64,000 bases of DNA, from assembly GCA_019636335.1 (NCBI GenBank), contig JAHBXR010000004.1, forward strand, positions 124,001 through 188,000, written 5' to 3'. This document shows positions 9,966-58,755 of the stretch, piece by piece. This DNA comes from Pirellulales bacterium. Lineage in GTDB: Bacteria > Planctomycetota > Planctomycetia > Pirellulales > JAEUIK01. The position numbers were made by a program, and so were the translations under genes. The first letter of the stretch is position 1. The number at the start of each line of letters is the position of its first letter. The notes under the pieces were generated by a model that did not search any database, was not told the DNA's origin, and saw nothing but the letters and a program-made list of their open reading frames with translations.

Positions 9966-10896
9966 AATCGCGGCCGTCTTGATCGTGCTCGAAGTCGCGC
10001 CATTTCATGGGGCGGCGGAAGGGCTCGACGCGCAGCACGACCTCGCCGTTCTGAAAGATGCGCACGGTCCCGCTCGACTCGCTGACGGCGATCGCCACGG
10101 CCTTGGTCGATCGGCTCACCGCGGCGGCGGCCCAATGGCGGGCGCCGAGCCCCTTGGACAGCGTCAGCCCCGCGGCCGGCGCGTCGACGTACCGCGCCGC
10201 GGCCTCGACCGTGCCATCGGCCGCGATGACGATCGCGCCATCCATCTGCGCGATCTCTTTGATGCCTTCGCGCACCTTGGCATTCTTGATGTTGCGTTCC
10301 TTGCGGCTGTATCCCTTCACGGGGTCGAAGCCGGTCGGGTAGCTACTGGCCAGCACCTTGCGCGTATCGCCGACGACGAACAGCGTGCCGATCGGCTTTC
10401 CTTCGCGACCTTCGCGGCCGATCTCGAGGGCCAGGTTCACCACCGTGCGCAGCGTTTCGAGCGGGACGCGGCTTTCGAGCTGGCGCAGATCGGCCACGGT
10501 GAGACGACCCAAGTGCTCGCCCAGGTCGAGCAGGCTGAGCGAATCGAACTCGCGCTCCTCGAAGCCACTGTAGAGCGACACGACACGACAACCGGGCGCG
10601 AGGATGTCGTCGGCCACGCTTTCCAACAAGGCCTGCGTGAGCCGCTCGTAGACGGGCAGATCGACGACTCCCACGATCACCGTCGGCAAGCCGCATTCTT
10701 GCGCGCCGGCAAGACAATCGGGAGTCGAGGCCGCCGCCAGCAGCTTCACGCCGTCGGCCAGCCCCTTCGCCTTGGCCCAATCGATCGGACGCTCGGCCAG
10801 CAACAGCAGTGCGTCAGCGTCGGTCGCCCGTGCCATGCGCACGGCGTTCTCGAAGATCGTCTCGAAAAGCTCGTCGACGTGCTGAGACTTCGCCAT
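9964..10896 (-). CDS. Diadenylate cyclase (DAC/DisA_N domain) with N-terminal pyruvate-kinase-C-like domain
   Basis: A 310-residue protein from ATG 10896. Residues ~20-110 look like the Rossmann-like pyruvate-kinase C-terminal domain (ADALLLLAERPIDWAKAKG ... TVIVGVVDL) and residues ~145-290 are a DAC domain: EGKPIGTLFVVGD, QMDGAIVIAADG (the DGA motif, 219-221), GARHWAAAAVSR (RHR-type motif, here RHW, 253-255) and VSESSGTVRIF. This layout is that of DacZ, first described in archaea, which makes cyclic di-AMP from two ATP. The third residue of RHR is Trp instead of Arg, which could alter catalysis. The upstream neighbour is an ABC exporter on the same strand, 220 nt away. Confidence 0.83.
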   Translation of the reverse strand: MAKSQHVDELFETIFENAVRMARATDADALLLLAERPIDWAKAKGLADGVKLLAAASTPDCLAGAQECGLPTVIVGVVDLPVYERLTQALLESVADDILAPGCRVVSLYSGFEEREFDSLSLLDLGEHLGRLTVADLRQLESRVPLETLRTVVNLALEIGREGREGKPIGTLFVVGDTRKVLASSYPTGFDPVKGYSRKERNIKNAKVREGIKEIAQMDGAIVIAADGTVEAAARYVDAPAAGLTLSKGLGARHWAAAAVSRSTKAVAIAVSESSGTVRIFQNGEVVLRVEPFRRPMKWRDFEHDQDGRD

Positions 10897-42124: not shown

Positions 42125-43279
42125 TCACCTACTGCCTGGATCCCAAATCGTGGCCATGATGCGACGGAACGGACTCTCCTGCGGATAGAAGTAATACAGC
42201 GTGACCACTTTTCCGTCGGGGCGCTGCAGGGTGCGGGGATAGCCCAGGTCTCGGCCACCGCCCCCGGTTTGCAGCACGAACGGCGCGCTCCACGTGAGGC
42301 CCTCGTCGCGGCTGAATTTCGCCTGTATTTCATAAGGCGCCTTGCGCACGCCGTAAGTCAGGCACAGCCTGCCGTCGGCCAAGCGAATCATCGCGGGAGG
42401 ATTGCCCTCGCCCAAGTCGTCGACCGCGTCGCCGAGCGCCTGCCAGCTCTGCCCGTTGTCGTCCGATTTCCAGAGGTCGATCCAGCGATGCTTGGGCTCG
42501 TCCTCGGCCGCGCGGCGACGGGTCGCCAGCACCAGCTTCTCGGGCGAGAGGCGAACGGTCGAGGGCATGATCGAGAAGCCATTCGGCGACGGTCCCACGT
42601 ACGAGAGGAACTCCCAACTCAGGCCACCGTCGGTCGTCCGGCCGCAAAACACGCGCCCCTCCTGGTGGTTCTTTTTCGACGCCGTCAGAAAGACATGGCA
42701 ATCGCGCGGGCCGTTCACCAGGTAATCGGTGCGGGCCATGACCCCCAACTGGCCGAACGAGGGGACCTCGAACGGCCCCTGCCACGTGTGCCCGCGGTCG
42801 TACGAATAGTAGAGCCGAGAGCTGCCGCCGTCGACGCCGCTGAAACGCAGCGTCATCGAGAAGTCGGGATGCGTGAAGTCGATCGGTTCGGTGATCGGCC
42901 GCGCGGCCGCTTCGGCGTGTGCGGGATCCTGCGTGCCGTGTCGCATACCGCCGAAGTTGATGAGCTGACCGCGCTCGTGAGGATACTCCGTCTGCCACGA
43001 TTCGCCACCATCGAGACTGCGGGCCAGCACGTGGTACTCTGGTTTGCCACGGTCGATGTTGTGCCGCTCTTCGCCCAGATTGGCGTGCTGCCCGACGCTG
43101 AAGCCCACCAGCAACTCGTCCCCCCAACCCCACAGACCATGATTCGCCGGCCAACCGGCAAAAAGCCCCTCTTGGCCAAAGACTACGACCTGCCGTTCGA
43201 CCTTCGGTTCGGCCGCCAACCCCACACGGCAACAAAACGGCAGAAATAAAATGGCGAGGATTTGCCGGTTACGGCGCAT
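42125..43279 (-). CDS. Secreted sialidase-like (BNR/Asp-box) protein
   Basis: A 384-residue protein with a signal peptide (ILAILFLPFCCRVGLA). Five Asp-box repeats of the S/T-x-D-x-G-x-x-W type are seen: SLDGGESW, SYDRGHTW, TTDGGLSW, SDDNGQSW and SRDEGLTW, which mark a five- or six-bladed beta-propeller. It belongs to the sialidase/neuraminidase superfamily common in planctomycetes. The arginine triad of true sialidases was not assigned, so the substrate may be another acidic glycan. Single gene. Confidence 0.87.
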   Translation of the reverse strand: MRRNRQILAILFLPFCCRVGLAAEPKVERQVVVFGQEGLFAGWPANHGLWGWGDELLVGFSVGQHANLGEERHNIDRGKPEYHVLARSLDGGESWQTEYPHERGQLINFGGMRHGTQDPAHAEAAARPITEPIDFTHPDFSMTLRFSGVDGGSSRLYYSYDRGHTWQGPFEVPSFGQLGVMARTDYLVNGPRDCHVFLTASKKNHQEGRVFCGRTTDGGLSWEFLSYVGPSPNGFSIMPSTVRLSPEKLVLATRRRAAEDEPKHRWIDLWKSDDNGQSWQALGDAVDDLGEGNPPAMIRLADGRLCLTYGVRKAPYEIQAKFSRDEGLTWSAPFVLQTGGGGRDLGYPRTLQRPDGKVVTLYYFYPQESPFRRIMATIWDPGSR

Positions 43280-45308: not shown

Positions 45309-48300
45309 ATGTTTCGTCGCCGTCGCGTTCGCCACGGTACTGAGGTTTCCCACGCTCCGCGCCGCCGCGGCACGCCGTTCGCCAGCCGTCTCGGCTCGTC
45401 GTCGCCGTTGAATCACCGCTCCTTCCACCTGGAACCAATGGAAGAGCGGCGCATGCTGGCGGTCGATCCGCTCATGTTCGACGTGGCCCTCGTCAAGGAC
45501 ATCAACCCCAGTGGGAGTTCTTCTCCCGCGGAATCGGTGAACGTGGGTGGGATTCTCTACTTCGCTGCTAGCGACGGGACAAACGGCCGAGAGCTGTGGA
45601 GGAGTGACGGAACCGAGGCTGGAACCGCCATGCTCGGGAACATCAACTCTGGCGCGGGCGACTCCGATCCTCAGAATCTGGTGAACGTGGGAGGCACTCT
45701 CTACTTTACTGCCGACGACGGCTTCAGAGGCCGGGAACTTTGGAAGAGCGACGGGACACCGGCTGGGACCGAGATCGTCAAGGATATCGAGTTCGGACCG
45801 CTAGGCTCCGCGCCCACCAGCCTGGTGAACGTGGGGGGCACCCTCTACTTTGGCGCCGGCGACACCACGAACGGTTATGAGCTTTGGAAGAGTGACGGGA
45901 CCGAGGCCGGAACCGTGCTCGTCAAGGACATCCGTCCCGGCGGGCAAAGCTCCGTTCCCAACCATCTGACGAACGTAGGGGGAATCCTCTACTTCAACGC
46001 CTTCGTCGGTGCGAACGGTTTCGAGCTTTGGAAGAGCGACGGGACCGAGGGCGGAACCGTGCTGGTCAAGGATATCGCTCCCGACTTTGAGAGCTCCGAT
46101 CCTACCCATCTGACGAACGTGGGGGGGATTCTCTACTTCGCCGCCGGCGACACCACGAACGGTTTCGAGCTTTGGAAGAGCGACGGGACCGAGGGCGGAA
46201 CCGTGCGCGTCAAGGACATCAATCCTGGAATCTCCAGTTCCAATCCCAGCAACCTGACGAACGTGGGAGGGATCCTCTACTTCACTGCCGACGACGGCAC
46301 GAACGGTACCGAACTTTGGAAGAGCGATGGGACCGAGGCCGGAACCGTGCAGGTCAAGGACATCAATATCAGTTCGTTCAGTTCCAATCCCAGTAACCTG
46401 ACGAACGTGGGAGGGATCCTCTACTTCGCCGCCGACGACCTCGTGAACGGCACCGAGTTATGGAAAAGCGACGGGACCGGCGCCGGAACCGTGCGCGTCA
46501 AGAACATCAACGCCAGTATTATGGGGAGCTCGAACCCCAGCGAACTGACGAACGTGGCAGGGTTGCTCTACTTCAGCGCCGACGACGGCACGAACGGGGT
46601 CGAGCTGTGGGTGAGCGACGGGACCGAAATTGGGACCGTGCTCGTCAAGAATATCAGTCCCGGTGGGGGGAACTCGAATCCCAGCCAATTGACGAACGTG
46701 AGAGGGGCACTCTACTTCAGCGCCAACGACGGCACGAACGGCATCGAGCTGTGGAAGTTGGATGTGATCGACACGCTGCCGCCGCAGCGCCCCACGCTCG
46801 ACCTGCTGACCGCCTTCGACACCGGCTCGGCCACGAACGACGACATCACGAACCTCGCCGTGCTCGACTTCCGTCTCTCGGCCGAGCTGGGGACGACGGT
46901 CCACATCAAGGACGGCGAGACGATCATCCACACGATCGACGATTTTACGCCCGACGCCGACGGCTTCCTGGTCGTGACGATCGACTTCAACACGGTCTTC
47001 GCCGATTTCGGCATTCCGGTCGAGGGGCCGCACCCGCTGTCGGCCGAGGCCTTCGACTACGCCGGCAACCGCAGCGCGCAGAGCGAAGTAGTGCCGCTGC
47101 TGATCGACACGACAGAACCGCTCGTGGGGGATCCCGCGCTCTATATCCTTTCGTCGAGCGTGACCGACGTCTGCCTGGACGACGACGTGATTCAGACGAG
47201 CATCAACGAACCGGCCTTCTCGGGCTACGTCGAAGCGCTTTCCACCGTGCGGCTCTACGCGCTCAATCTCGATGATCCAAGCGCGCAGCCCGTGTTGATC
47301 GGCGTCGGTCAGGCGGGTTCCGACGAGAGTGACGGCACCCCCGGCGACGGGCTGGGCATCTGGGAGATCACCGTCGAGCCACTGGCCGACGCCACGTACG
47401 CGATCACGATGCAGGTCGAGGACAGCGCCGGCAACATCACGAGCTATACGCACGGCGGCCAGCCAAACACCGTGCTGGTCAAGGACATCAACCCCAGCCC
47501 CGGCACCGGCTCCAGTCCCGAATTCCTGGTAAACGTGGGGGGGATCCTCTACTTCAGCGCCACCGACGGCACGAACGGCTTCGAGCTTTGGAAGAGCGAT
47601 GGGACCGAGGCCGGCACCTTGTTGGTCAAGGACATCAACCCCAACCCCATCACCGGCTCCAGTCCCGAATTCCTGGTAAACGTGGGGGGGATCCTCTACT
47701 TCAGCGCCACCGACGGCACGAACGGCCGCGAGCTTTGGAAGAGCGATGGGACCGAGGCCGGCACCTTGTTGGTCAAGGACATCAACCCCAACCCCAACAC
47801 GGGCTCCAACCCCAGCAGCCTGGTGAACGTGGGAGGGATCCTCTACTTCAGCGCCACCGACGGCACGAACGGTTATGAGCTTTGGAAGAGCGATGGGACC
47901 GAGGCCGGAACCGTACTCGTCAAGGACATCGTCGCCGGCGCGGGCAACTCCAATCCCCAGTACCTGACGAACGTGGGGGGTATCCTCTACTTCAGCGCCT
48001 TCGACACCACGAACGGTTATGAGCTTTGGAAGAGCGATGGGACCGAGGCCGGAACCGTCTTGGTCAAGGACATCAACCCCAACACGGGCTCCAGCCCCAG
48101 CAGCCTGGCGAACGTGGGAGGAATCCTCTACTTCAGCGCCCACGACGGCACGAACGGCTTCGAGCTTTGGAAGAGCGATGGGACCGAGGCCGGAACCGTA
48201 CTCGTCAAGGACATCAACCCCAACCCCAACACGGGCTCCAACCCCAGCAGCCTGGCGAACGTGGGTGGGATCCTCTACTTCAGCGCCAACGACGGCACGA

Positions 48301-51300
48301 ACGGCTTCGAGCTTTGGAAGCACGACGAGCGGTTGATCATCACGATCGACACGCTCGCGCCGCAGCGTCCCACGCTCGACCTGCTGGCGGCCTTCGACAC
48401 CGGCTGGGCCACGAACGACGATATCACGCGCCTCACCTCGCTCGACTTCCGCCTCTCGGCCGAGCCAGGAAGTCACGTCGTGATTAAAGACGGCGAGGTC
48501 GTCATCCTCGAGATCCCGAACTTCACGCCCGACGCCGACGGTTTCCTGATCGTGACGGTCGACTTCAACACGGTCTTCGCCGATTTCGGCATTCCGGTCG
48601 AGGGACCGCACCCACTGTCGGCCGAGGCGTTTGACTGCGCCGGCAACCGCAGCGCGCAGAGCGAGGTGCTGCCCCTGCTGATCGACACGACGGCGCCCAC
48701 GTGGACCTCGATCGAGGTTCTAAATGCCGTGGTCGACGGACCGAATCTCTATACGAACGTCAACCCGATCACGTTCGAAGGGAGCGCCACCGCGGGCGCC
48801 ATCGTGCGGTTCTACTCCAATGGCGATCTCGTCGGCGAAGCGTATGTCGGCGACGATGAAAGTGACGGCAATCCGAACGATGGTTTTGGCGTCTTCACCG
48901 TCACGCTCGCGCCGCTCGCAGACGGTCAGCCAAACTTGACCATCCAGGTCGAGGACCTAGCCGGCAATCTAGACGACACGGACGAAGTCTTTCCAAATCT
49001 GATCCTCGACACGCTCGCGCCGCAGCGTCCCACGATCGACCTTTTAGCGGCCGACGACACGGGCTTTTCCAACGATGACGACTTCACGAGACTCACGGTG
49101 CTCCGTTTCCGCATCTCGGCCGAGGCCGGCAGCGACGTCGTCATCAAGGATGGCAACACCGTCATCGCGACGATCGACAACATCGTGCTCGATTCCGATG
49201 GCTTTGCCACGGTTACGCTCGACTTCGTGGCCAATCAAATCAACCACGGCATTCCGGCCGAAGGGCCACATCCCCTGTCAATCGAGTCGACCGACACGGC
49301 CGGCAATCGCAGCGCGCAGAGTGCCGTGCTGCCGCTGGTGATCGACAGGACCGCTCCCACCTGGACGTCCCTCGAACTCCTGAATGCCATTGCCGATGGA
49401 CCGAATCTCTACACCAGAATCAACCCGATCACGATCGAGGGGCACGCGACCGCCCTGGCGCTGGTGCGTATCTACACCGACAACGGCTCCGACCTCATCG
49501 GCGAGGCCTACGTCGGCGACGACGATAGCGATGGCATCCCGGGCGATGGTTTCGGCGTCTTCACGGTCACGCTGGCGCCGCTCGTCGATGGCTCGTACGC
49601 GTTCCAAATCGAGATCGAGGATCGCGCCGGCAACCTCGATGGCCCGGACGACATCTTTACCAACACGATTCTCGACACCCTCCCCCCCCAGCGGCCGACG
49701 ATCGACCTGATCACGCCGGACGACACCGGTTCGTTCGACAACGACGACATCACGAATCTCAGCACACTGACCTTCCGCATTTCGGCCGAGCCGGGCAGCG
49801 ACGTCGTGATCAAGGACGGCGATACCGTCATCGTCACGTTGAACGATCTCGTGGTCGGCCCCGACGGCTTCACCACCGTCGTCATCGACTTTGCCAACAT
49901 CCCCAACTTCGCGACCGAGGGTCCGCATCCCCTTTCGATCGAGTCGACCGATACGGCCGGCAACCGCAGCGCCCAAAGCGCCGTCCTGCCGTTGGTGATC
50001 GATCTGACCGACCCGATTCTCAGCGACAATCCGATCTTCATCCTCGCATCGAGCGTCACCGACATCTGTCTCGACGACGACGTCACGCAAACGAGCGTCA
50101 ACGAGCCGGCCTTCTCGGGCTACGTCGAGGCCCTGGCCATCGTGCGGCTCTATGCCCGCAATGTCGACGACCCCGACTCCGTGCCCCAGTTGATCGGCAT
50201 TGGCCAGGCTGGCTCCGACGAGAGCGATGGTGACCCGGCCGACGGCTACGGCATCTGGGAGATCACCGTCGAGCCGCTGGCCGACGGCAACTACGAGATC
50301 ACGATGCAGGTCGAGGATGTGGCCGGCAACATCACGCCCTGGCCCGATCCCGACGGCGACGGCCTGTTCATCAAGATCGACACGCTCGCGCCGCAGCGGC
50401 CGACGATCGACCTGGTCAACATCTACGACACCGGTTCGTCCGATCTCGACAACGTAACGAACCTGTGGTGGCTCGACTTCCGTATCTCGGCCGAACCGGG
50501 GAGCCGCGTGCTGATCAAGGATGGGGAAGTCGTGATCTACGAGATCGACCACTTCATCCCCGGCCCCGATGGCTTCGCCATCGTCTCGATCGACTTCTTC
50601 TGGGAAGAGTTCGAGCACTTCATCTCGGCCGAAGGCCCACACCCGCTGTCGGTCGAGGCCTTCGATTGCGCCGGCAATCGCAGTGCCCAGTCGGAGGAGT
50701 TGCTGGTCGAAATCGATCTCACTGCCCCCTGTGCGGTGACGGCCGACATGCTCTCTTCCAGCGACTCGGGCACGTTCGACGACGACAACGTGACCAACAT
50801 CCGCACGCCAGCCTTCTCGGGCTATGCCGAAGCGAACGCCACGATTCGCATCTATGCCTCGCCCGTCATCAACGGGGTCGTCGGCGCGCCCGAGCTGGTG
50901 GGAGTCGGCCGCGTCGGTTCGGACGAGAGCGACGGCAGACCCTGGGATGGCCTGGGCATCTGGGAAGTTACCATCGAACCGCTCGACGACGGCCAGTACA
51001 TCATCACGACCGAGGTCGAGGATCTGGCCGGCAACGTTGGCTACTGCGAAGACGACTATGACTGCGGCGGTGGTGGCGGAGGGCCCGCCTTCGCCCCCGC
51101 CGGCGAAGGTGGATGGGGCTGCTGCTGCGATTGCTACTGCGACTGCGAACCCCTGACCATCTATATCGACACGCTCGTGCCGAACACGCCCTACCTCGAT
51201 CTGGTCGCCTCGAGCGATACCGGTCGCCACAACGCCGACAACGTCACGTTCGACATCACGCCCACCTTCACGATCACTGCCGATGACCTGCCGGGCAACG

Positions 51301-54300
51301 TCAGCATCGATCCCAACGCGATCGTGAACCCGTTCTGGCACGACGTCGTATGGCGGCTCTTCGCGCGTCGCGGCGACACGCCGGAAGTGCTCGTGGCCAG
51401 TCTTAATTCGCTGAGCGAGCTCGGCCACTTCGTCACTACGCTCGACTTGCCCGCCTTCTTCGGTACGAATCCCGGCGACGTCGACGGCGTCTACAACTTC
51501 AAGCTCGAAGTAGAGGATCGCGCCGGCAACATCAGCCCCGACTTCCTGCTCCAGGTCACGTTCGACACGATCGCGCCGATTCCTGCGGGCGACCTGCACC
51601 CGAACAGCGACTCGGGTGTCACCGGCTACACCCCCACGTTCGGCGACAAGGTGACGAACGTGAAGACGCCCAGCTTCTTCGGCTCGGCCGAGGCGAACGT
51701 GTTCGTCGATCTGTTGATCGACGGCGTGCCGGCGGGGGGCTCGGTCTCGGTGCCGCTCGACGGCAACTTCGCCTTCCTGTTGAACGGCGAATTCTACACG
51801 CAGTCGAATCTGAATCTGCAAGACGGCCTGCACACGGCGATTTTCATTCACGAGGATCTGGCCGGCAACAAGCAGTCTTTCACGCGGCTGTTCTTCGTCG
51901 ATACGCAAGGCCCGCGGATCACCAACGTCGTGCGGGGACAAGTCTCGTACGACGGCGTGCTCGATTTCGACGGGGTGAACAGCCTCTTCGCGCCGAAGCC
52001 GCAGAGCAACGTCGATCCGCTGATCCATAGCATCGTGGTCAACTTCCTCGACAACCCGCCGCGCGTGCAGCAGTTCTTGTACGAGGCAGTCTTCGCCGCG
52101 CTGGCCTCGCAGCCGGGCAACTACACCCTGATCGGTGATCGCACCGGTTACGTGACGATCGTCCAGGCGATTCCCACCTTCACGACGATCGCCGGCGTTC
52201 CCGCGCTGGCCAGCGTGGAGCTCGTGTTTTCGGAACCGCTGGCCGACGATCGCTACACCTTCTCCGTCTCGCAGAATCTCCGCGACCCGGCGGGCAACGC
52301 GTTGGACGGCGAATCGTCGGCCGCCGGGCCGTTTGCCGGCAATCCGGCGCCGCAAGATACGCCTCCCTTCTTTCCCACCGGCGATGGCTCGCCCGGTGGC
52401 GGTTTCGTCTCGCGCTTCACGGTCGACAGCCGTCCGGAACTGGGCACGTATGCCTCGACGACGATCTATCTCGACATCAACGGCAACGCGATTTGGGATC
52501 CGCAGGGTCAGAACAACGATCGTACGAACGTCGACTTGACGTTCCTCTTCGGAAATCCGTCGAGCCCGAACGACTCGCGCTTCGCCGGCAAGTTCAGCCC
52601 GCTGGTGAACGGCGTGAAGACGTTGACCGACGGCTTCGACAAGCTTGCTGCCTACGGCAACTTCGGCGGTACGTTCCGCTGGTTGATCGACACGAACAGC
52701 GACGGCGTCCCCGACCTGAACCTGGTGGACGCCTTCCAGAAAGACGGCATTCCGATCGCCGGCAACTTCGACGGGAACAAGGCCAACGGCGACGAGATCG
52801 GCTACTTCACCGGCGACAAGTGGTATCTCGATACGAACGGGGACTATATCCTCGATACCGTCATCACCTCGGCGTTGCGTGGCTTCCCGATCGTCGGCGA
52901 TTTCGACGGCGACGGCTACGACGATCTGGCCACCTACGCGGCCGATCGGTTCCAGTTTGACTTCTACGCCAACGGCGGCTGGAACGGCGTCATCGAGGAC
53001 ACGATCCTGTGGGGCTTCGACGGCGTGGTCGAACGCCCGGTCGCGGCCGATATGGATGCCGACGGCGTCGACGACATTGGCCTGTGGGTACCCGGTCGTA
53101 GCGGCCAGCTCCCACGCGTCGCGGCCGAGTGGTTCTTCCTGGTCTCGGGACGCGATCCGATCCCGTCGCAGCCGGCCAACGGCGTGGCCCCCGCCAACGT
53201 CTATTACGGAACCGCCAACTGGCTGAAGCATGCCTTCTCGCCGGTGCCGTTCGGCAACGATCTGTTCTTCCAGTTTGGCGATGAGTTCGCGATTCCGATC
53301 ATCGGCAACTTCGATCCGCCGAACGATCCGCTGACCGACAACTTCGCCTTCTTGCCGTTCGAAGATTCGTTCGACCGGGCCGATAGCACCAACCTGGGGC
53401 CGAAATGGGTCGAGCGCCTCGGCAACGTGCGGATCGCCAGCGGCGAGTTGGTGCTGCACAATAACGCCACCAGCATCGCGGCGCTCAACGGCGTCACGGC
53501 CACCGACGTCAGCGTCGAAGCCGTGATCGACGTCACCAACGGCAGCAGCGTCGGTTTGCTGGCACGCTACGGCGGCTCCGGCGACTCGAACGCCTACATG
53601 GGTCTGCTCGTCAAGACCGGAAGCGGCTACGCGGCGCAAATCTGGCGCAACGTCGGTGGCACGTGGACGAACCTGACCAGCCAGTCTGTCGGGCGCGGCC
53701 AAGGCACCCTGCGGTTCGAAGTGGTCGGCACGAGCCTGCGGCTCCTCTTCAACGGACAGACCGTCGGTCAGGCGACCGACGGCGTGCTCACCACCGGGGG
53801 TGGCGTCGGCCTGCGTCACTCGGGGGGCAAGGTCGCTAGTTTCAAGGCCGAGACCCAACTGCTCCCGTTCCGCGCCGCGACCGCGTTGCCCTTCGTCGAC
53901 GACTTTGCCCGAGCCAACAGCACATCGTTGGGCGTCAACTGGCAAGAGCTCGAAGGCGACATCGGCATTTCGAACGGGGCCGCCGTGCTCTATCGCAATG
54001 CCACCTCGGTGGCCACGCTCGTGGATGTGGCCGTGGCCGATGTCGTGGTCAGCGCCGATATCGACATCACGGGTGGTGGCAACGCCGGCCTCTTGGCCCG
54101 TCACAGCGGGCCGGGCGATTCGAACGGCTACATGGCCCGCTTGTACCGCGGCGATGCTTTCTACGCGGCACAAATCTGGCGCAACGTCGACGGCCAGTAC
54201 GTGCCGCTCCGCAGCGTGCCCGTCTCTGGCGGCGCCGGCAACCTGCGGTTCGAGGTGATCGGCTCCGAGTTGAAGCTCTACTTCAACGGACAGCTCGTCG

Positions 54301-54923
54301 CCAGCACGATCGATACCTACATCACGGGCGCCGGATCGGCCGGCATCCGGCACTCGGGGGGTAAGCTCGATAACTTCCAAGTCGAACGCGCCACGGCGCC
54401 CACCGCACTGGCCGCCTCGCTTCCCTTTGCCGATGCCTTTACGCGGAACGACAACTCGCTGCTCGCGGCCGATTGGGTGACCCGCGCCGGCGACTTCCGC
54501 ATCTTTGGCGGCAAGGTGAACATCGGCGCGGGCGAAACCTCGATCGCGGTCCTCAACGGCGCGGTTCAGGCCAACGTCAGCGTCGTGGCCGAGATCGACG
54601 TTACCGCCGGTGGCAATATCGGTCTACTGGCCCGCTACAGCGGACCGGGGGACTCGAATGCCTACATGGGACGGCTTGTGACCAGCGGCGGACGCTACTA
54701 TGCCCAAATCTGGAAGAACCTGGGAGGCAACTGGACCTACCTCACCCACGCCGAAGTTGCCAGCGGCAGCGGCACGCTGCGATTCGACGTGGTGGGCAAC
54801 TCGTTGAAGCTCTACTTCGACGGCCTGCTGGTCGGCGATACGGTCGATGCGAGCATCACCGCCGCCGGACAAGTCGGCTTCCGACACTCGGGGGGCACGC
54901 TCGACAACTTCAGCGCGCAATAG
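45309..54923 (+). CDS. Giant repetitive surface protein (3204 residues)
   Basis: ATG 45309 follows GAGGGG. The Arg-rich N-terminus leads to HLEPMEERRMLAVDP, the planctomycete sorting-like motif. Domains in order: a block of ~48-residue ELWKSDGTEAGT units (residues ~57-485), bacterial Ig-like repeats (~487-720), a second ELWKSDGT block (~720-1007), more Ig-like repeats to ~2080 starting DTLAPQRPT-DLL, a Ca2+-dependent-looking FG-GAP/dockerin-like DxNxDGxxD region (~2380-2670: DTNSDGVPD, DGDGYDD, DADGVDD), and three ~170-190-residue LamG-like C-terminal units. A Cys-rich patch (CCCDCYCDCE, ~1938-1947) is unusual. It is acidic and Lys-poor, fitting a calcium-rigidified adhesin or cell-coat fibre. 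A strong terminator follows. Confidence 0.92.
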   Translation: MFRRRRVRHGTEVSHAPRRRGTPFASRLGSSSPLNHRSFHLEPMEERRMLAVDPLMFDVALVKDINPSGSSSPAESVNVGGILYFAASDGTNGRELWRSDGTEAGTAMLGNINSGAGDSDPQNLVNVGGTLYFTADDGFRGRELWKSDGTPAGTEIVKDIEFGPLGSAPTSLVNVGGTLYFGAGDTTNGYELWKSDGTEAGTVLVKDIRPGGQSSVPNHLTNVGGILYFNAFVGANGFELWKSDGTEGGTVLVKDIAPDFESSDPTHLTNVGGILYFAAGDTTNGFELWKSDGTEGGTVRVKDINPGISSSNPSNLTNVGGILYFTADDGTNGTELWKSDGTEAGTVQVKDINISSFSSNPSNLTNVGGILYFAADDLVNGTELWKSDGTGAGTVRVKNINASIMGSSNPSELTNVAGLLYFSADDGTNGVELWVSDGTEIGTVLVKNISPGGGNSNPSQLTNVRGALYFSANDGTNGIELWKLDVIDTLPPQRPTLDLLTAFDTGSATNDDITNLAVLDFRLSAELGTTVHIKDGETIIHTIDDFTPDADGFLVVTIDFNTVFADFGIPVEGPHPLSAEAFDYAGNRSAQSEVVPLLIDTTEPLVGDPALYILSSSVTDVCLDDDVIQTSINEPAFSGYVEALSTVRLYALNLDDPSAQPVLIGVGQAGSDESDGTPGDGLGIWEITVEPLADATYAITMQVEDSAGNITSYTHGGQPNTVLVKDINPSPGTGSSPEFLVNVGGILYFSATDGTNGFELWKSDGTEAGTLLVKDINPNPITGSSPEFLVNVGGILYFSATDGTNGRELWKSDGTEAGTLLVKDINPNPNTGSNPSSLVNVGGILYFSATDGTNGYELWKSDGTEAGTVLVKDIVAGAGNSNPQYLTNVGGILYFSAFDTTNGYELWKSDGTEAGTVLVKDINPNTGSSPSSLANVGGILYFSAHDGTNGFELWKSDGTEAGTVLVKDINPNPNTGSNPSSLANVGGILYFSANDGTNGFELWKHDERLIITIDTLAPQRPTLDLLAAFDTGWATNDDITRLTSLDFRLSAEPGSHVVIKDGEVVILEIPNFTPDADGFLIVTVDFNTVFADFGIPVEGPHPLSAEAFDCAGNRSAQSEVLPLLIDTTAPTWTSIEVLNAVVDGPNLYTNVNPITFEGSATAGAIVRFYSNGDLVGEAYVGDDESDGNPNDGFGVFTVTLAPLADGQPNLTIQVEDLAGNLDDTDEVFPNLILDTLAPQRPTIDLLAADDTGFSNDDDFTRLTVLRFRISAEAGSDVVIKDGNTVIATIDNIVLDSDGFATVTLDFVANQINHGIPAEGPHPLSIESTDTAGNRSAQSAVLPLVIDRTAPTWTSLELLNAIADGPNLYTRINPITIEGHATALALVRIYTDNGSDLIGEAYVGDDDSDGIPGDGFGVFTVTLAPLVDGSYAFQIEIEDRAGNLDGPDDIFTNTILDTLPPQRPTIDLITPDDTGSFDNDDITNLSTLTFRISAEPGSDVVIKDGDTVIVTLNDLVVGPDGFTTVVIDFANIPNFATEGPHPLSIESTDTAGNRSAQSAVLPLVIDLTDPILSDNPIFILASSVTDICLDDDVTQTSVNEPAFSGYVEALAIVRLYARNVDDPDSVPQLIGIGQAGSDESDGDPADGYGIWEITVEPLADGNYEITMQVEDVAGNITPWPDPDGDGLFIKIDTLAPQRPTIDLVNIYDTGSSDLDNVTNLWWLDFRISAEPGSRVLIKDGEVVIYEIDHFIPGPDGFAIVSIDFFWEEFEHFISAEGPHPLSVEAFDCAGNRSAQSEELLVEIDLTAPCAVTADMLSSSDSGTFDDDNVTNIRTPAFSGYAEANATIRIYASPVINGVVGAPELVGVGRVGSDESDGRPWDGLGIWEVTIEPLDDGQYIITTEVEDLAGNVGYCEDDYDCGGGGGGPAFAPAGEGGWGCCCDCYCDCEPLTIYIDTLVPNTPYLDLVASSDTGRHNADNVTFDITPTFTITADDLPGNVSIDPNAIVNPFWHDVVWRLFARRGDTPEVLVASLNSLSELGHFVTTLDLPAFFGTNPGDVDGVYNFKLEVEDRAGNISPDFLLQVTFDTIAPIPAGDLHPNSDSGVTGYTPTFGDKVTNVKTPSFFGSAEANVFVDLLIDGVPAGGSVSVPLDGNFAFLLNGEFYTQSNLNLQDGLHTAIFIHEDLAGNKQSFTRLFFVDTQGPRITNVVRGQVSYDGVLDFDGVNSLFAPKPQSNVDPLIHSIVVNFLDNPPRVQQFLYEAVFAALASQPGNYTLIGDRTGYVTIVQAIPTFTTIAGVPALASVELVFSEPLADDRYTFSVSQNLRDPAGNALDGESSAAGPFAGNPAPQDTPPFFPTGDGSPGGGFVSRFTVDSRPELGTYASTTIYLDINGNAIWDPQGQNNDRTNVDLTFLFGNPSSPNDSRFAGKFSPLVNGVKTLTDGFDKLAAYGNFGGTFRWLIDTNSDGVPDLNLVDAFQKDGIPIAGNFDGNKANGDEIGYFTGDKWYLDTNGDYILDTVITSALRGFPIVGDFDGDGYDDLATYAADRFQFDFYANGGWNGVIEDTILWGFDGVVERPVAADMDADGVDDIGLWVPGRSGQLPRVAAEWFFLVSGRDPIPSQPANGVAPANVYYGTANWLKHAFSPVPFGNDLFFQFGDEFAIPIIGNFDPPNDPLTDNFAFLPFEDSFDRADSTNLGPKWVERLGNVRIASGELVLHNNATSIAALNGVTATDVSVEAVIDVTNGSSVGLLARYGGSGDSNAYMGLLVKTGSGYAAQIWRNVGGTWTNLTSQSVGRGQGTLRFEVVGTSLRLLFNGQTVGQATDGVLTTGGGVGLRHSGGKVASFKAETQLLPFRAATALPFVDDFARANSTSLGVNWQELEGDIGISNGAAVLYRNATSVATLVDVAVADVVVSADIDITGGGNAGLLARHSGPGDSNGYMARLYRGDAFYAAQIWRNVDGQYVPLRSVPVSGGAGNLRFEVIGSELKLYFNGQLVASTIDTYITGAGSAGIRHSGGKLDNFQVERATAPTALAASLPFADAFTRNDNSLLAADWVTRAGDFRIFGGKVNIGAGETSIAVLNGAVQANVSVVAEIDVTAGGNIGLLARYSGPGDSNAYMGRLVTSGGRYYAQIWKNLGGNWTYLTHAEVASGSGTLRFDVVGNSLKLYFDGLLVGDTVDASITAAGQVGFRHSGGTLDNFSAQ
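45480..46770 (+). repeat. ELWKSDGT tandem repeat block 1
   Basis: About nine units of ~141 bp, each encoding a motif like GGILYFTADDGTNGTELWKSD followed by GTEAGTV-VKDI. Units differ more at the nucleotide level than those of block 2. The last unit is degenerate (ELWKLDVID). Confidence 0.85.
47470..48330 (+). repeat. ELWKSDGT tandem repeat block 2
   Basis: Six ~141-bp units, five with ELWKSDGTEAGT and a degenerate sixth (ELWKHDERL). They are nearly identical at the nucleotide level (for example repeated GGGACCGAGGCCGG and CTCTACTTCAGCGCC), so they are younger than block 1. The block interrupts an Ig-like region. Confidence 0.85.
53340..54920 (+). repeat. Three C-terminal LamG-like repeats
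   Basis: Three units of roughly 170-190 residues share the pattern F-DSF-RADSTNLG-W, then SVGLLARYGG-GDSNAYMG, AAQIWRNV-G-W, GTLRFEV-G--L-L-FNGQ and GLRHSGGK---F. Such domains are usually sugar- or protein-binding beta-sandwiches. Confidence 0.8.
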
Positions 54924-55003: not shown

Positions 55004-55149
55004 GATACCTGGATGGAGGGGGACGGCCCGGCCATCGCCGAGCGCGGGATTCGAGTTGACGCCCCGCAGCGGCGCGTCGATCATGGATGGTTGCGTCTGG
55101 CGCGGTGCTTGGCCGGGCAGACATGGGCAAGGTCATGCACGGGGGAAGC

Positions 55150-56937
55150 ATGGATCCGACGATCGCGGCACAGCCACGCGCACACGAATCGCCAACAGCA
55201 AATCGCGAAGCACAGCGGTCTGCTGCCACCGCGACCTCGGTGCGACTCCTGTGGCAGCATCGGGCCGTCCTGGTGCTCGCGACGCTCTTCGTCACGGTCC
55301 CCTTTCTCGGCAAGCCGTTGCACATCGACGACCCCCTCTTCGTCTGGTCGGCGCAGCATCTCCAATCCGATCCGGTCGACTTCTACGGGTTCAATGTCAA
55401 CTGGTTCGGCTATTCGGCGCCCATGTCGGACATGATGAAGAACCCCCCTCTGGCCTCCTATTACATCGCGGCGGCGGCCACGCTGCTGGGCTTTGGCGAG
55501 GTCGGTCTGCACACGGCCCAACTTCTGCCCACGATCGCCGCGGTGCTCGGCACCTTCGAGTTGGCGCGGCTGCTCTGCCGGCGTCCGTTCCTGGCGACGC
55601 TCGTCGCCCTGACGACCCCCGTCTTCGTGATCTGTGCCAGCACGCTGATGTGCGACGTGCCGTTCCTGGCGCTGTGGGTTTGGTCGCTCGTGTGCTGGCA
55701 TCGCGGGTTGCACGAAGAACGGCAGGGGCTGCTCCTGGCGGGCGCCGTGCTTGCCACGCTGGCGGCACTCACCAAATACTTCGGCATGTGCCTCGTGCCG
55801 CTCATGCTGCTCGACGCCATCGACGTGCGCCGCAAAGCCACCTGGGGCATGCTCTGGCTGCTCGTGCCGGTGCTGGCCATGCTCGCCTTCGAGCGAGTCA
55901 CCGAATCGATGTACGGCTTCGGACTGGTCTCGGACGCACAATCGTATGCCTCTCGGGCGAATGAAACCGAAGGCGCCCCGCGCAACTTGCAGGGCTTTTT
56001 CCGGCTGGTCGTCTATATCGGCGGCTGCGTCGTGGGAGTGGCCTTGTTTGCGCCGCGCTGCTGGCAGTATTGGACGCTCGGCGTTACGGTGGTCGCGTCC
56101 CTCGTGCTTTCATTCCTGGCGCTCTACCGCGGCTGGGCCGACGTGCTGCAGCAAGTCACCAGCCTGACCACGGGCGAAGGCTGGCGCCTCTTCGCCCACG
56201 TGTTCGTCTTTCTGCTGGCCGGGTTCACCGTGCTGGGTCTGGTGGTCTCGGATTTTGCTGCCCAGCGCCAGCGTTCGAAACTTCTGCTGGGGGGCTGGAT
56301 GGTCGGCACGCTCCTGTTCGCCGGCTTCGTCAATTGGACGATCAACGGCCGCTCGGTGCTGCCCATGGTGCCGGCGCTCGGCATACTCGTGGCACGACGA
56401 CTTGAAGAAACCGAAAGTGATGTCGCTGAGAAAAAGTGGCTGGACGAAATCAGTCTCCGCGACGCGGCGCCCTTGCTGGTCGGTCTTGCCGCGGCCATGC
56501 TAGCTACGGCGGGAGATTACGAACACGCGGCCTCTGCCCGACGCGCTGCCGAGATCCTGGCCCGCGACCATCGTCCGCAGGACCAGCAGTTTACCTTCGT
56601 CGGACATTGGGGCTTCCAATACTATTTCGAAAAGCTGGGCGTTGCGCCGCTCGATTCGAGCCGAATTCGCTTCCAGGAGGGCGATGTCGTCGTGGCCCCA
56701 CTGGCCAATACGAACACGGTGCTTCTGCCTACCGAACTTGCCGAAGTGAAGACCGCCGTCACGATGAACATGAAACTGCCCGTGGCCACCCAGCGGAAGC
56801 AGGCAAACGCGGGCTTCTACGGCACCAGCTATGGTCGGCTCCCCTGGCGGTTGGGATCTGTTCCTGCGGACCAATACCTGGTACAGGTTCTACGGCGCGA
56901 TTTCAAATTGGATCTTCCCCCGCCGGCCATTCGCTAA
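55150..56937 (+). CDS. GT39-type membrane glycosyltransferase (ArnT/PMT-like), first copy
   Basis: A 595-residue integral membrane protein from ATG 55150, preceded by GGGGGAAG. Roughly 10-12 helices. Near the N-terminus LHIDDPLFVWSAQHLQSDPVDFYGFN carries the acidic pair in the first outer loop typical of polyprenyl-phosphate-sugar transferases, followed by MKNPPLASYYIAAAA. The C-terminal soluble part (FVGHWGFQYYFEKLGVAPLD) lies outside. It should transfer a sugar from a polyprenyl carrier to protein or lipid. A paralogue follows 60 nt downstream. Confidence 0.87.
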   Translation: MDPTIAAQPRAHESPTANREAQRSAATATSVRLLWQHRAVLVLATLFVTVPFLGKPLHIDDPLFVWSAQHLQSDPVDFYGFNVNWFGYSAPMSDMMKNPPLASYYIAAAATLLGFGEVGLHTAQLLPTIAAVLGTFELARLLCRRPFLATLVALTTPVFVICASTLMCDVPFLALWVWSLVCWHRGLHEERQGLLLAGAVLATLAALTKYFGMCLVPLMLLDAIDVRRKATWGMLWLLVPVLAMLAFERVTESMYGFGLVSDAQSYASRANETEGAPRNLQGFFRLVVYIGGCVVGVALFAPRCWQYWTLGVTVVASLVLSFLALYRGWADVLQQVTSLTTGEGWRLFAHVFVFLLAGFTVLGLVVSDFAAQRQRSKLLLGGWMVGTLLFAGFVNWTINGRSVLPMVPALGILVARRLEETESDVAEKKWLDEISLRDAAPLLVGLAAAMLATAGDYEHAASARRAAEILARDHRPQDQQFTFVGHWGFQYYFEKLGVAPLDSSRIRFQEGDVVVAPLANTNTVLLPTELAEVKTAVTMNMKLPVATQRKQANAGFYGTSYGRLPWRLGSVPADQYLVQVLRRDFKLDLPPPAIR

Positions 56938-56997
56938 CATGTACTCCGCGCGGCAAGCTTATCGCGCGCCCTTCGACCTTTGCGCGAGCAGTATTCG

Positions 56998-58755
56998 ATG
57001 TCATTTCCGGCGCCGGCCACCTCGAAGCCTCTCGTGCAGACACCCAAGCTCGCACAAGACTCGACACCGGATTGCTCCGCGCGCCTCGTCGTCCGCTACC
57101 CCAGGCTGCTGCTCGCGGGACTGACGCTGGCCTGCCTGCTCCCCTTCGTGGCGCAGCCGCCACACGTGGACGACCCCCTCTTCATCTGGACGGCCCAGCA
57201 TATCGCGCAGGTACCGGCCGACTTCTATGGCTTCTCGGCCAATTGGTTCGGCACCGAAGCGCCGATGATCATCAACATGAAGAACCCGCCCCTGGCCTCC
57301 TATTATCTGGCGGTCGTGGGGTCGCTGTTTGGCTTTCACGCGGTCGTGCTCCATCTGGCCATGCTGGCGCCGGCCGTATTGACCGTGTGGGGGGTCTATA
57401 CACTGGCCGACCGCTTGGGTCTCGACCCCCTTCTCTCGGGCTGCCTCACGCTGGCCATGCCCGTGTTTCTCATGTCGGCCACCATGCTCATGTGCGACGT
57501 CATGTTGTTGGCCTGCTGGACTTGGGGCATCGCCTTTTGGGTCGATGGCATCCAGCGCCGCAGGTTGCTACCCCAAGCATTGGCCGCGCTCTGCATGGCA
57601 TTGGCCGTGCTCATCAAGTATTTCGGCATCGCCCTGGCCCCCTTGCTACTGGTCTATGCCCTAACCGTCCGGAAGAACGTCGGCTGGTGGTTGCTCTGGT
57701 TCGGCGTGCCACTGGCGACCCTGGTCGGTTATGAGTCGTGGACGGCTCACCTCTACGGCGCGGGGTTGCTCGCCGATGCCATGCACTACAGTTCTGAAGC
57801 CCGGCAGGCAAATCAACTGCTCATCAGTTTGGAAACGAGCTTTGTCGCGGTGCTGTTTCTCGGGGGCTGCCTGTTGGGGGTGCTGACCTATGCTCCGCGA
57901 ATGTGGAACATCGTTTGGCTGGTGGGCATCGTCGTGGTGATCTGCCTGATTAGCGTGGCAGCCGTGTCGCAGGGCTGGCTCGACCCCGACAATCTCGCGC
58001 CTGATATCTCGAGTCCAAGCGAACGCACCATTCAGGTCGTCCATGTGCTGCTGATGGTTGGAGCAGGACTCACCGTTCTCGTGCTGGTCGTCAGCGACCT
58101 GAAAAACCAGCGCGACGCCCTGTCGCTAATGCTGGCCTTGTGGGTCGGCGGAACGTTCATCTTCGCCGGCTTTCTGAATTGGACGGTCAGTGGAAGATCG
58201 ATGCTCCCCATAGCGCCGGCCGTGGCCCTGCTGGTGGCACGCAACCTCGAGCGTTGTTCGCTGCTGCGGGGACCGCGACGCTGGCGATGGGACTACGGCT
58301 CGCTACTTTTTGGTCTGGCCGTGGGGATGCTGGGAGCCTGGGGTAACTACGCCCAGGCCTCGACCGCTTACGAAGCAGCCCAACAAATCGTCGCCAAGTA
58401 CCAGAAAGACGGCACTCGACTCTGGTTCGAAGGACATTGGGGATTCCAATACGAGATGCAGCGTCTCGGCGCGATGCCCCTCGACTACGATCACCTCGAT
58501 TTGGCCGTGGGCGACTACGTGGCAATCCCCAGCTACAACACGAATCTGTGGCACCTCTCGACCGAACTGGCCACGACCCGCGAGTCGTTCGAGATCGCGC
58601 ACCGCTCCCCCGTGATCACGATGCGGGCCCCGCTCCACGCGGGCTTCTATGCCGCCGTGATCGGCCGCTTCCCTTACATCATGCTGGGAGACATCTCCCC
58701 GGATCGCTATACCGTCTACCAGATCCGCCAGCCGTTGCAGCGCAAGTCGCGCTAA
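56998..58755 (+). CDS. GT39-type membrane glycosyltransferase, second copy
   Basis: A 585-residue paralogue of the preceding gene. It shares VDDPLFIWTAQHIAQVPADFYGFSANWFG, MKNPPLASYYLAVV, a similar helix order, FLNWTVSGRSMLPIAPA and the C-terminal FEGHWGFQYEMQRLGAMPLD. Only the first-loop acids and the MKNPPLASYY motif are strictly kept, so the copies have diverged and may use different sugars or acceptors. The two are probably co-transcribed. A dispersed repeat begins directly after its stop codon. Confidence 0.87.
   Translation: MSFPAPATSKPLVQTPKLAQDSTPDCSARLVVRYPRLLLAGLTLACLLPFVAQPPHVDDPLFIWTAQHIAQVPADFYGFSANWFGTEAPMIINMKNPPLASYYLAVVGSLFGFHAVVLHLAMLAPAVLTVWGVYTLADRLGLDPLLSGCLTLAMPVFLMSATMLMCDVMLLACWTWGIAFWVDGIQRRRLLPQALAALCMALAVLIKYFGIALAPLLLVYALTVRKNVGWWLLWFGVPLATLVGYESWTAHLYGAGLLADAMHYSSEARQANQLLISLETSFVAVLFLGGCLLGVLTYAPRMWNIVWLVGIVVVICLISVAAVSQGWLDPDNLAPDISSPSERTIQVVHVLLMVGAGLTVLVLVVSDLKNQRDALSLMLALWVGGTFIFAGFLNWTVSGRSMLPIAPAVALLVARNLERCSLLRGPRRWRWDYGSLLFGLAVGMLGAWGNYAQASTAYEAAQQIVAKYQKDGTRLWFEGHWGFQYEMQRLGAMPLDYDHLDLAVGDYVAIPSYNTNLWHLSTELATTRESFEIAHRSPVITMRAPLHAGFYAAVIGRFPYIMLGDISPDRYTVYQIRQPLQRKSR

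Follow-up and report, generated by a model that had tools for sequence, protein, structure and literature searches.

Does a tandem repeat that is copied unit by unit build a fibre of any length, or does it build a structure in which the number of copies matters? This question is raised by a gene on the forward strand at positions 45309..54923 of the window, i.e. the whole stretch of 64,000 nucleotides that was analysed. It encodes a giant mosaic protein of 3204 aa with two blocks of ELWxxDGT units, on which the TIGR04534 profile scores 1005 bits over 16 stretches (curated cut-off 65), far beyond chance. We consider it quite probable that this is an exported mosaic protein in which the ELW units are beta-propeller blades, the ring is the unit that is kept, and block 2 is late and open.

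The open reading frame, its coordinates and the order of its parts had been given correctly in the initial annotation. All features lie on the + strand. Close to the start, LEPMEERRMLA (45429..45461) resembles a motif of planctomycete exported proteins; it is visible by eye, with PF07595 (Planc_extracel) staying below its gathering cut-off (11.8 vs 25.5 bits, E 0.21). A similar motif was seen by eye near the start of eight paralogues. Judging from this motif and from the domain company, the protein is probably exported. ELW block 1 runs from VALVKDI to the closing half-unit ELWKLDV (45477..46766). It is followed by the Ig-like domains A1 (Big_13 type, 46767..47102) and B1 (47103..47468), ELW block 2 (47469..48326), a short linker piece (48327..48344), and the alternating Ig-like series A2 B2 A3 B3 A4 B4 A5 B5 (48345..51164). 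Big_13 (PF19077) reaches 321.1 bits over 13 stretches (gathering cut-off 27), and Ca_tandemer NF033510 is above its cut-off on the Ig series, too. The linker after B5 contains the dense cysteine patch that had been noticed before: 8 of the 13 cysteines of the protein fall within aa 1913-1946 (51045..51146). Two more Ig-like domains, delimited by a border motif and Big_13 stretches, occupy 51165..51896.

The C-terminal third begins with a conserved core of FG-GAP/VCBS-type repeats and DxDxDG loops (51897..53354). FG-GAP (PF01839) is above its cut-off when aa 2201-2682 are searched alone (23.4 vs 22.1 bits) and is not listed in the whole-protein scan. Four DxNxDG-type loops (aa 2461, 2508, 2531 and 2581) lie inside this core, so that calcium-type loops do precede the C-terminal domains, as had been proposed. 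The proposal of three LamG-like domains at the C-terminus (53355..53876, 53889..54410 and 54423..54920) stands as far as three related copies are concerned: They are mutually 49-54% identical, the third being 54% and 49% identical to the first and the second, respectively. The family assignment is less firm. Two copies match ConA-like/LamG families, both below the cut-offs (PF13385, best 15.0 vs 27.6 bits; PF06439, best 17.2 vs 26.8 bits), and the third has no Pfam match. Hence, the ConA/LamG resemblance is a lead. The gene also contains antisense open reading frames, the longest of 1700 aa, which are presumably shadows of high GC. The upstream neighbour is an outer-membrane-protein-like gene (PF05150, 86.2 bits), and two adjacent genes for PMT_2-type glycosyltransferases lie directly downstream (55087-58755, +). 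Another neighbour (42125-43279, −) encodes an Asp-box/BNR propeller (PF13088, 56.6 bits).

Counted by the half-motif LYF...ELW, block 1 comprises nine and block 2 six units with a spacing of 47-49 aa (141-147 bases), which corroborates the layout of two ELW blocks that flank and interrupt Ig-like domains. The units of block 1 share on average 71.4% of their DNA (36 pairs, range 61.8-83.3), those of block 2 86.5% (15 pairs, range 79.9-91.8), and the mean between the blocks is 75.4% (54 pairs). When the units are treated as exchangeable, a difference this large occurs in one of the 5005 ways to split 15 units into nine and six. Equal divergence in both blocks, looked for as an argument against a later expansion of block 2, is thus not found. 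The lower divergence of block 2 had been recognised correctly; the description 'nearly identical' fits just its first two units, which are 98% alike over 39 codons. Four-fold degenerate sites agree at 84% in block 2 and at 67% in block 1. The nearest neighbours of the five full block 2 units are one another. Outside block 2, the nearest unit belongs to block 1 for four of the five and to a paralogue (L009) for one, and two of the four block 1 units tie with a unit of another paralogue (L012) after rounding. By these comparisons, block 2 looks recently expanded or homogenised.

How did block 2 come to lie among Ig-like domains? It splits an Ig-Ig linker: B1 ends in the left half (SYTHGGQPN), with AGNITSYTHGGQPN before the block, and ERLIITIDTL follows it, the right half beginning with ERLIIT (48327..48344). 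An intact counterpart, AGNITPWPDPDGDGLFIKIDTL, is present at the border B4|A5. When block 2 is taken out, a clean A-B-A-B series results. In L039, a protein from another genome of this order (G022), these two Ig kinds form an alternating series as well, and a further domain and the core are present; the domain order was read by eye, and no ELW unit was found in the protein by pattern. Because the linker is split and this series exists without ELW units, the comparison supports a later insertion of block 2 into an Ig-Ig linker.

However, A1 and A2 are 85% identical in DNA, as against 67-74% for all other A pairs, and their four-fold sites agree at 42 of 52 positions. For each of them, the other is the closest copy, which makes it doubtful that block 2 landed cleanly and by itself: Either ELW units were copied with A1 included, or the two domains were homogenised, and the history of block 2 probably comprises more than one clean landing. 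Of the initial view, a later expansion that landed within the Ig series, the lower divergence supports the expansion and the split linker the place inside the series; the landing itself appears less simple. The first of the two options can be extended to a composite duplication, in which the end of block 1 and A1 were copied as one segment and gave rise to block 2 and its following Ig domain. An abrupt end of the A1-A2 similarity at the A|B border agrees with such an event, as does the fact that at both transitions from ELW to Ig a closing ELW half-unit is joined to an A domain. On the other hand, ERLIIT, typical of a native Ig-Ig linker, follows block 2 and is absent at the block 1 junction, and collinearity between the block 2 units and the final six of block 1 is lacking. 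Furthermore, other Ig pairs (B1-B4, B2-B3) are mosaic as well, so that gene conversion could explain A1-A2. A composite duplication is a serious possibility, which we do not favour over a later insertion into the linker.

What do the units fold into? Block 1 was modelled with AlphaFold2 from an alignment of 40 rows, block 1 itself and 39 relatives trimmed to nine units; these 39 were taken from 60 prepared rows, 24 from the 28 single arrays and 15 from the 32 double arrays. Due to this trimming, the model is limited to nine units. It has a pLDDT of 94.0 and a pTM of 0.91. Its 36 strands are arranged as one entering strand, eight four-stranded blades and a last blade with three strands, and the entering strand (residues 6-12) is predicted to be placed such that it completes the ninth blade. 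Block 1 is thus predicted to be a closed nine-bladed beta-propeller, with closure resting on the strand list and on the match to 6tji. This designed propeller, labelled Cake10, is the best solved match (Z 23.6, rmsd 3.6, 343 of 360 residues), followed by the next at Z 17.0. Its 360 residues presumably correspond to nine blades, at 40 residues per blade. A Foldseek search with the block 1 model placed sortilin first (E 4.4e-10, TM 0.52) and listed other propellers, with modest TM-scores of about 0.5 to natural ones. By sequence, no solved chain similar to the protein was found at E 0.1. A profile of the nine-unit alignment yielded 21 matches, all of them weak (E 0.0055 at best). Almost all are to LRRK2 or to an unnamed kinase of that kind, and they were not taken as a relationship.

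The block 2 model (pLDDT 93.0, pTM 0.89) was built from 30 of 44 prepared rows, all six-unit cuts of longer arrays. It lacks the entering strand and ends in a three-stranded blade, an answer that such rows favour. Foldseek returned a best E of 8.8e-07, with TM-scores to the query of about 0.4-0.5 in the top rows. The VIA rows are headed by peptidase propellers at Z 17.0 (rmsd 5.3, 264 residues), none of which stands out clearly; designed Scone propellers reach Z 15.0 (rmsd 3.6, 226 residues). These matches to the model show a propeller fold that is compatible with both an open and a closed ring. The open six-blade arc predicted for block 2 is a lead, and alignment bias or a collapse in the assembly could explain the missing strand.

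If nine blades close a ring, array lengths elsewhere should be informative. Arrays were counted in 79 genome loci (from many phyla, according to their titles), three viral-contig loci, the eight paralogues and 40 places in genomes of the same order that were picked by hand. The genome loci represent the best 80 matches to a nine-unit query; owing to this query short arrays are under-represented, which cannot explain a gap at 10-15 units. One of the viral-contig loci (L154, from an IMG/VR contig listed as viral) carries an array of 7-8 units. Counting was done with a half-motif profile, and arrays at contig or stretch ends (7 of 108 and 4 of 69), four repeats of the same array and the two of the window gene were dropped. 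An earlier counter with a lax threshold had taken the entering half-unit for a unit, with peaks at 9-10 and 17-19, and was replaced.

The strict count covers 160 distinct arrays from outside the window gene. Of these, 59 fall at 8-9 units, 63 at 16-18 and three at 25-27, leaving eight at 10-15, three at 19-24 and 24 below eight. After joining arrays split by degenerate units (n = 151), 54 have 8-9 units, 65 have 16-18, three have 26-27 and 12 are below eight, so that 17 of the 139 arrays with at least eight units are off the peaks; joining produced one false case (L126, nine units, a spacer and nine units counted as 23), and some arrays of 19 include a long linker between rings. A smooth negative-binomial null expects 94.8 arrays in the gaps where 17 were observed (lowest of 20,000 draws, 72), although it overstates the certainty since the arrays are related and not independent. 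The peaks persist when arrays are grouped by single linkage at 60% identity: 65 groups remain, 16 of them at nine and 22 at 17-18 units. This count adds a closing unit by a pattern that is partly specific (31 of 54 vs 26 of 120 control segments).

The ends of the arrays carry a mark of their own. The DGT loop is absent from unit 9 in 36 of 42 nine-unit arrays and from unit 18 in all 18 eighteen-unit arrays. In the strict count, the last unit of 17-unit arrays keeps DGT in 78% of 23 cases; by eye, many of these arrays end in a further degenerate unit that the counter skipped, and in our judgement a last unit with DGT indicates a missed 18th unit. A relative genome in a single contig (G010) yielded 742 ELW candidates at first look, with several arrays of 8 or 16 units, which suggest that rings of eight may also occur. 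In 49 of 51 long arrays, neighbouring units resemble each other more than the array average. Copying of complete nine-blade rings in tandem was rejected as the main process: Similarity at lag 9 lies a mere 0.009 above the average. Among the lags from 4 to 12, lag 9 ranks first in 7 of 51 arrays, compared with 10 arrays for lag 4. A ring, an Ig-like spacer and another ring are also found in L104, L126, L143 and L133, where the spacers look Ig- or Calx-beta-like by eye, so that ring-spacer-ring may be a recurrent design.

Block 1 with nine units fits the ring rule, and block 2 with six is off the series. Judged by eye, it is the smallest array of this set with clean spacing and both ends intact. 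Might six be an artefact, block 2 truly having nine units of which near-identical copies collapsed in the assembly? Units of 141-147 bases, one pair of them so alike over 39 codons, are prone to this, the genome is in 60 contigs, so that short reads may have failed to resolve them, and clean arrays of fewer than eight units are rare in the census, as seen by eye. Yet all six units are distinct, and over their full length they differ pairwise at 8-20% of bases, a divergence that usually assembles. For this reason, a collapse is considered unlikely. Block 2 as a six-unit array, the reading that we retain, may be an unfinished ring or a ring completed by another chain, with an assembly undercount as the third option.

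Because the lengths cluster at 8-9, 16-18 and 26-27 units, the arrays appear to comprise one, two or three rings and not to be fibres of any length. According to the scheme that we propose, the chain of block 1 would enter with a half blade (VALVKDI) and pass nine LYF...ELW half-units, and the entering strand would complete the ninth blade to yield one closed ring. Throughout the family the ring, usually with nine and sometimes with eight blades, would be the unit that is kept. Blades would be gained by local duplication of units, and lengths between rings would be rare. An extra blade would crowd or open a ring until a further ring can close, without lengthening a fibre, and arrays would therefore stay near one, two or three rings. 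Block 2 would have come into the Ig-Ig linker later and have been expanded or homogenised recently, its six blades leaving the predicted ring open. Rings, Ig-like spacers and the ConA-like tail would most likely present ligand-binding surfaces outside the cell. We infer that selection acts on ring closure. Additional ELW copies seem to build further rings and not a longer fibre.

The initial annotation had suggested a cell-coat fibre that grows by unit duplication. A modular protein with duplicating units is upheld; a modular surface fibre without preferred length, which local duplication, the recent look of block 2 and arrays of up to 27 units would allow, is very unlikely in view of lengths clustering near 9, 18 and 27 and of a unit predicted as a propeller blade and not as a fibre repeat, even if a rod made of the Ig series between rings is conceivable. 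A more detailed version of the ring scheme is somewhat doubtful: Here, arrays evolve blade by blade, ring closure restricts them to the vicinity of multiples of nine, and block 2 would be a young six-blade arc in an Ig linker, between two steps. Its options would be to gain three blades, to be completed by a partner chain or to persist as an open binding surface.

The same genome contains nine ELW genes in all (grouped from 120 matches), eight besides the window gene. Four of the eight have the same ConA-like C-terminal domains in two to three copies each, three have glycine-rich repeats that look RTX-like by eye, and one is truncated at the end of its contig. One ELW locus (L014, genome G000, contig C4:193044-193856) lies some 14 kb downstream of the gene on the same strand and combines ELW units with two ConA-like domains. 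ELW repeats occur in 68 of 246 genomes of the order, the own genome included. A same-order relative (G125:C164, around 10200-10337) has an ELW unit in an open frame of 12346 aa.

The core has a distribution of its own. Its sequence (aa 2201-2697) is matched at E 1e-20 or better in 26 of 96 relatives, none of which belongs to the same genus, and at E 0.001 in 75 of 97 genomes including the own, a number that comprises weak FG-GAP matches. The 26 genomes provide 27 core-bearing open reading frames, of which 11 are cut at the 5' end by the contig or stretch and 16 are informative for the N-terminal part. No ELW unit was found in any of the 27 with the pattern.LW..[DN]GT, which degenerate units could escape. 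Other modules follow the core in the 14 C-termini inspected by eye. By this pattern, the architecture is not fixed among relatives; a fixed one had been named as evidence against a protein growing by unit duplication.

Part of this picture is known from other systems. TIGR04534 comprises the same sequence repeat and is widespread, occurring in many phyla by the record titles of the best 80 matches; the window gene differs by its long Big_13 series, its FG-GAP core and a second block of just six units. Literature searches by name and motif for ELWxxDGT, TIGR04534 or ELWKSDGT found no paper, and the titles and abstract openings searched on nine-bladed propellers hold no ELW case. For WD40-like amplified propellers, blade numbers that peak at 7 and 14 are reported in the sections consulted of Pereira and Lupas, 2022 (PMC9218822), which also mention another family whose paralogues have 6 and 9 blades; the ELW term is absent from this paper. 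These recently amplified propellers (WRAP and others) share with ELW arrays, as far as those sections go, the duplication of blades and the peaks at one and two rings. For designed Cake repeats, passages of PMC8458387 describe folds of eight or nine blades, governed by the number of copies; in these 8-9 blades they resemble ELW arrays, with the difference that Cake is designed. No paper on Cake10 was found, and 6tji is absent from the passages of PMC8458387 that were consulted. The Ig-like adhesins of bacteria (Ca_tandemer, Big_13) have the same kind of Ig series, which is above both cut-offs here. The window protein differs in that two Ig kinds (A and B) alternate and that a propeller block and a Cys patch break up their series.

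Amplified propellers with peaks at ring multiples are already known. What is added here is the predicted fold of the ELW family, its quantum of nine and an off-series block. A widespread repeat family that has been named by its motif alone gains a predicted fold and a length rule. Provided that selection maintains rings of nine as the unit, the ELW arrays of many phyla would be a natural record of propellers being built blade by blade. If this is true, rare off-series arrays such as block 2 are the places to test how far an unfinished ring is tolerated.
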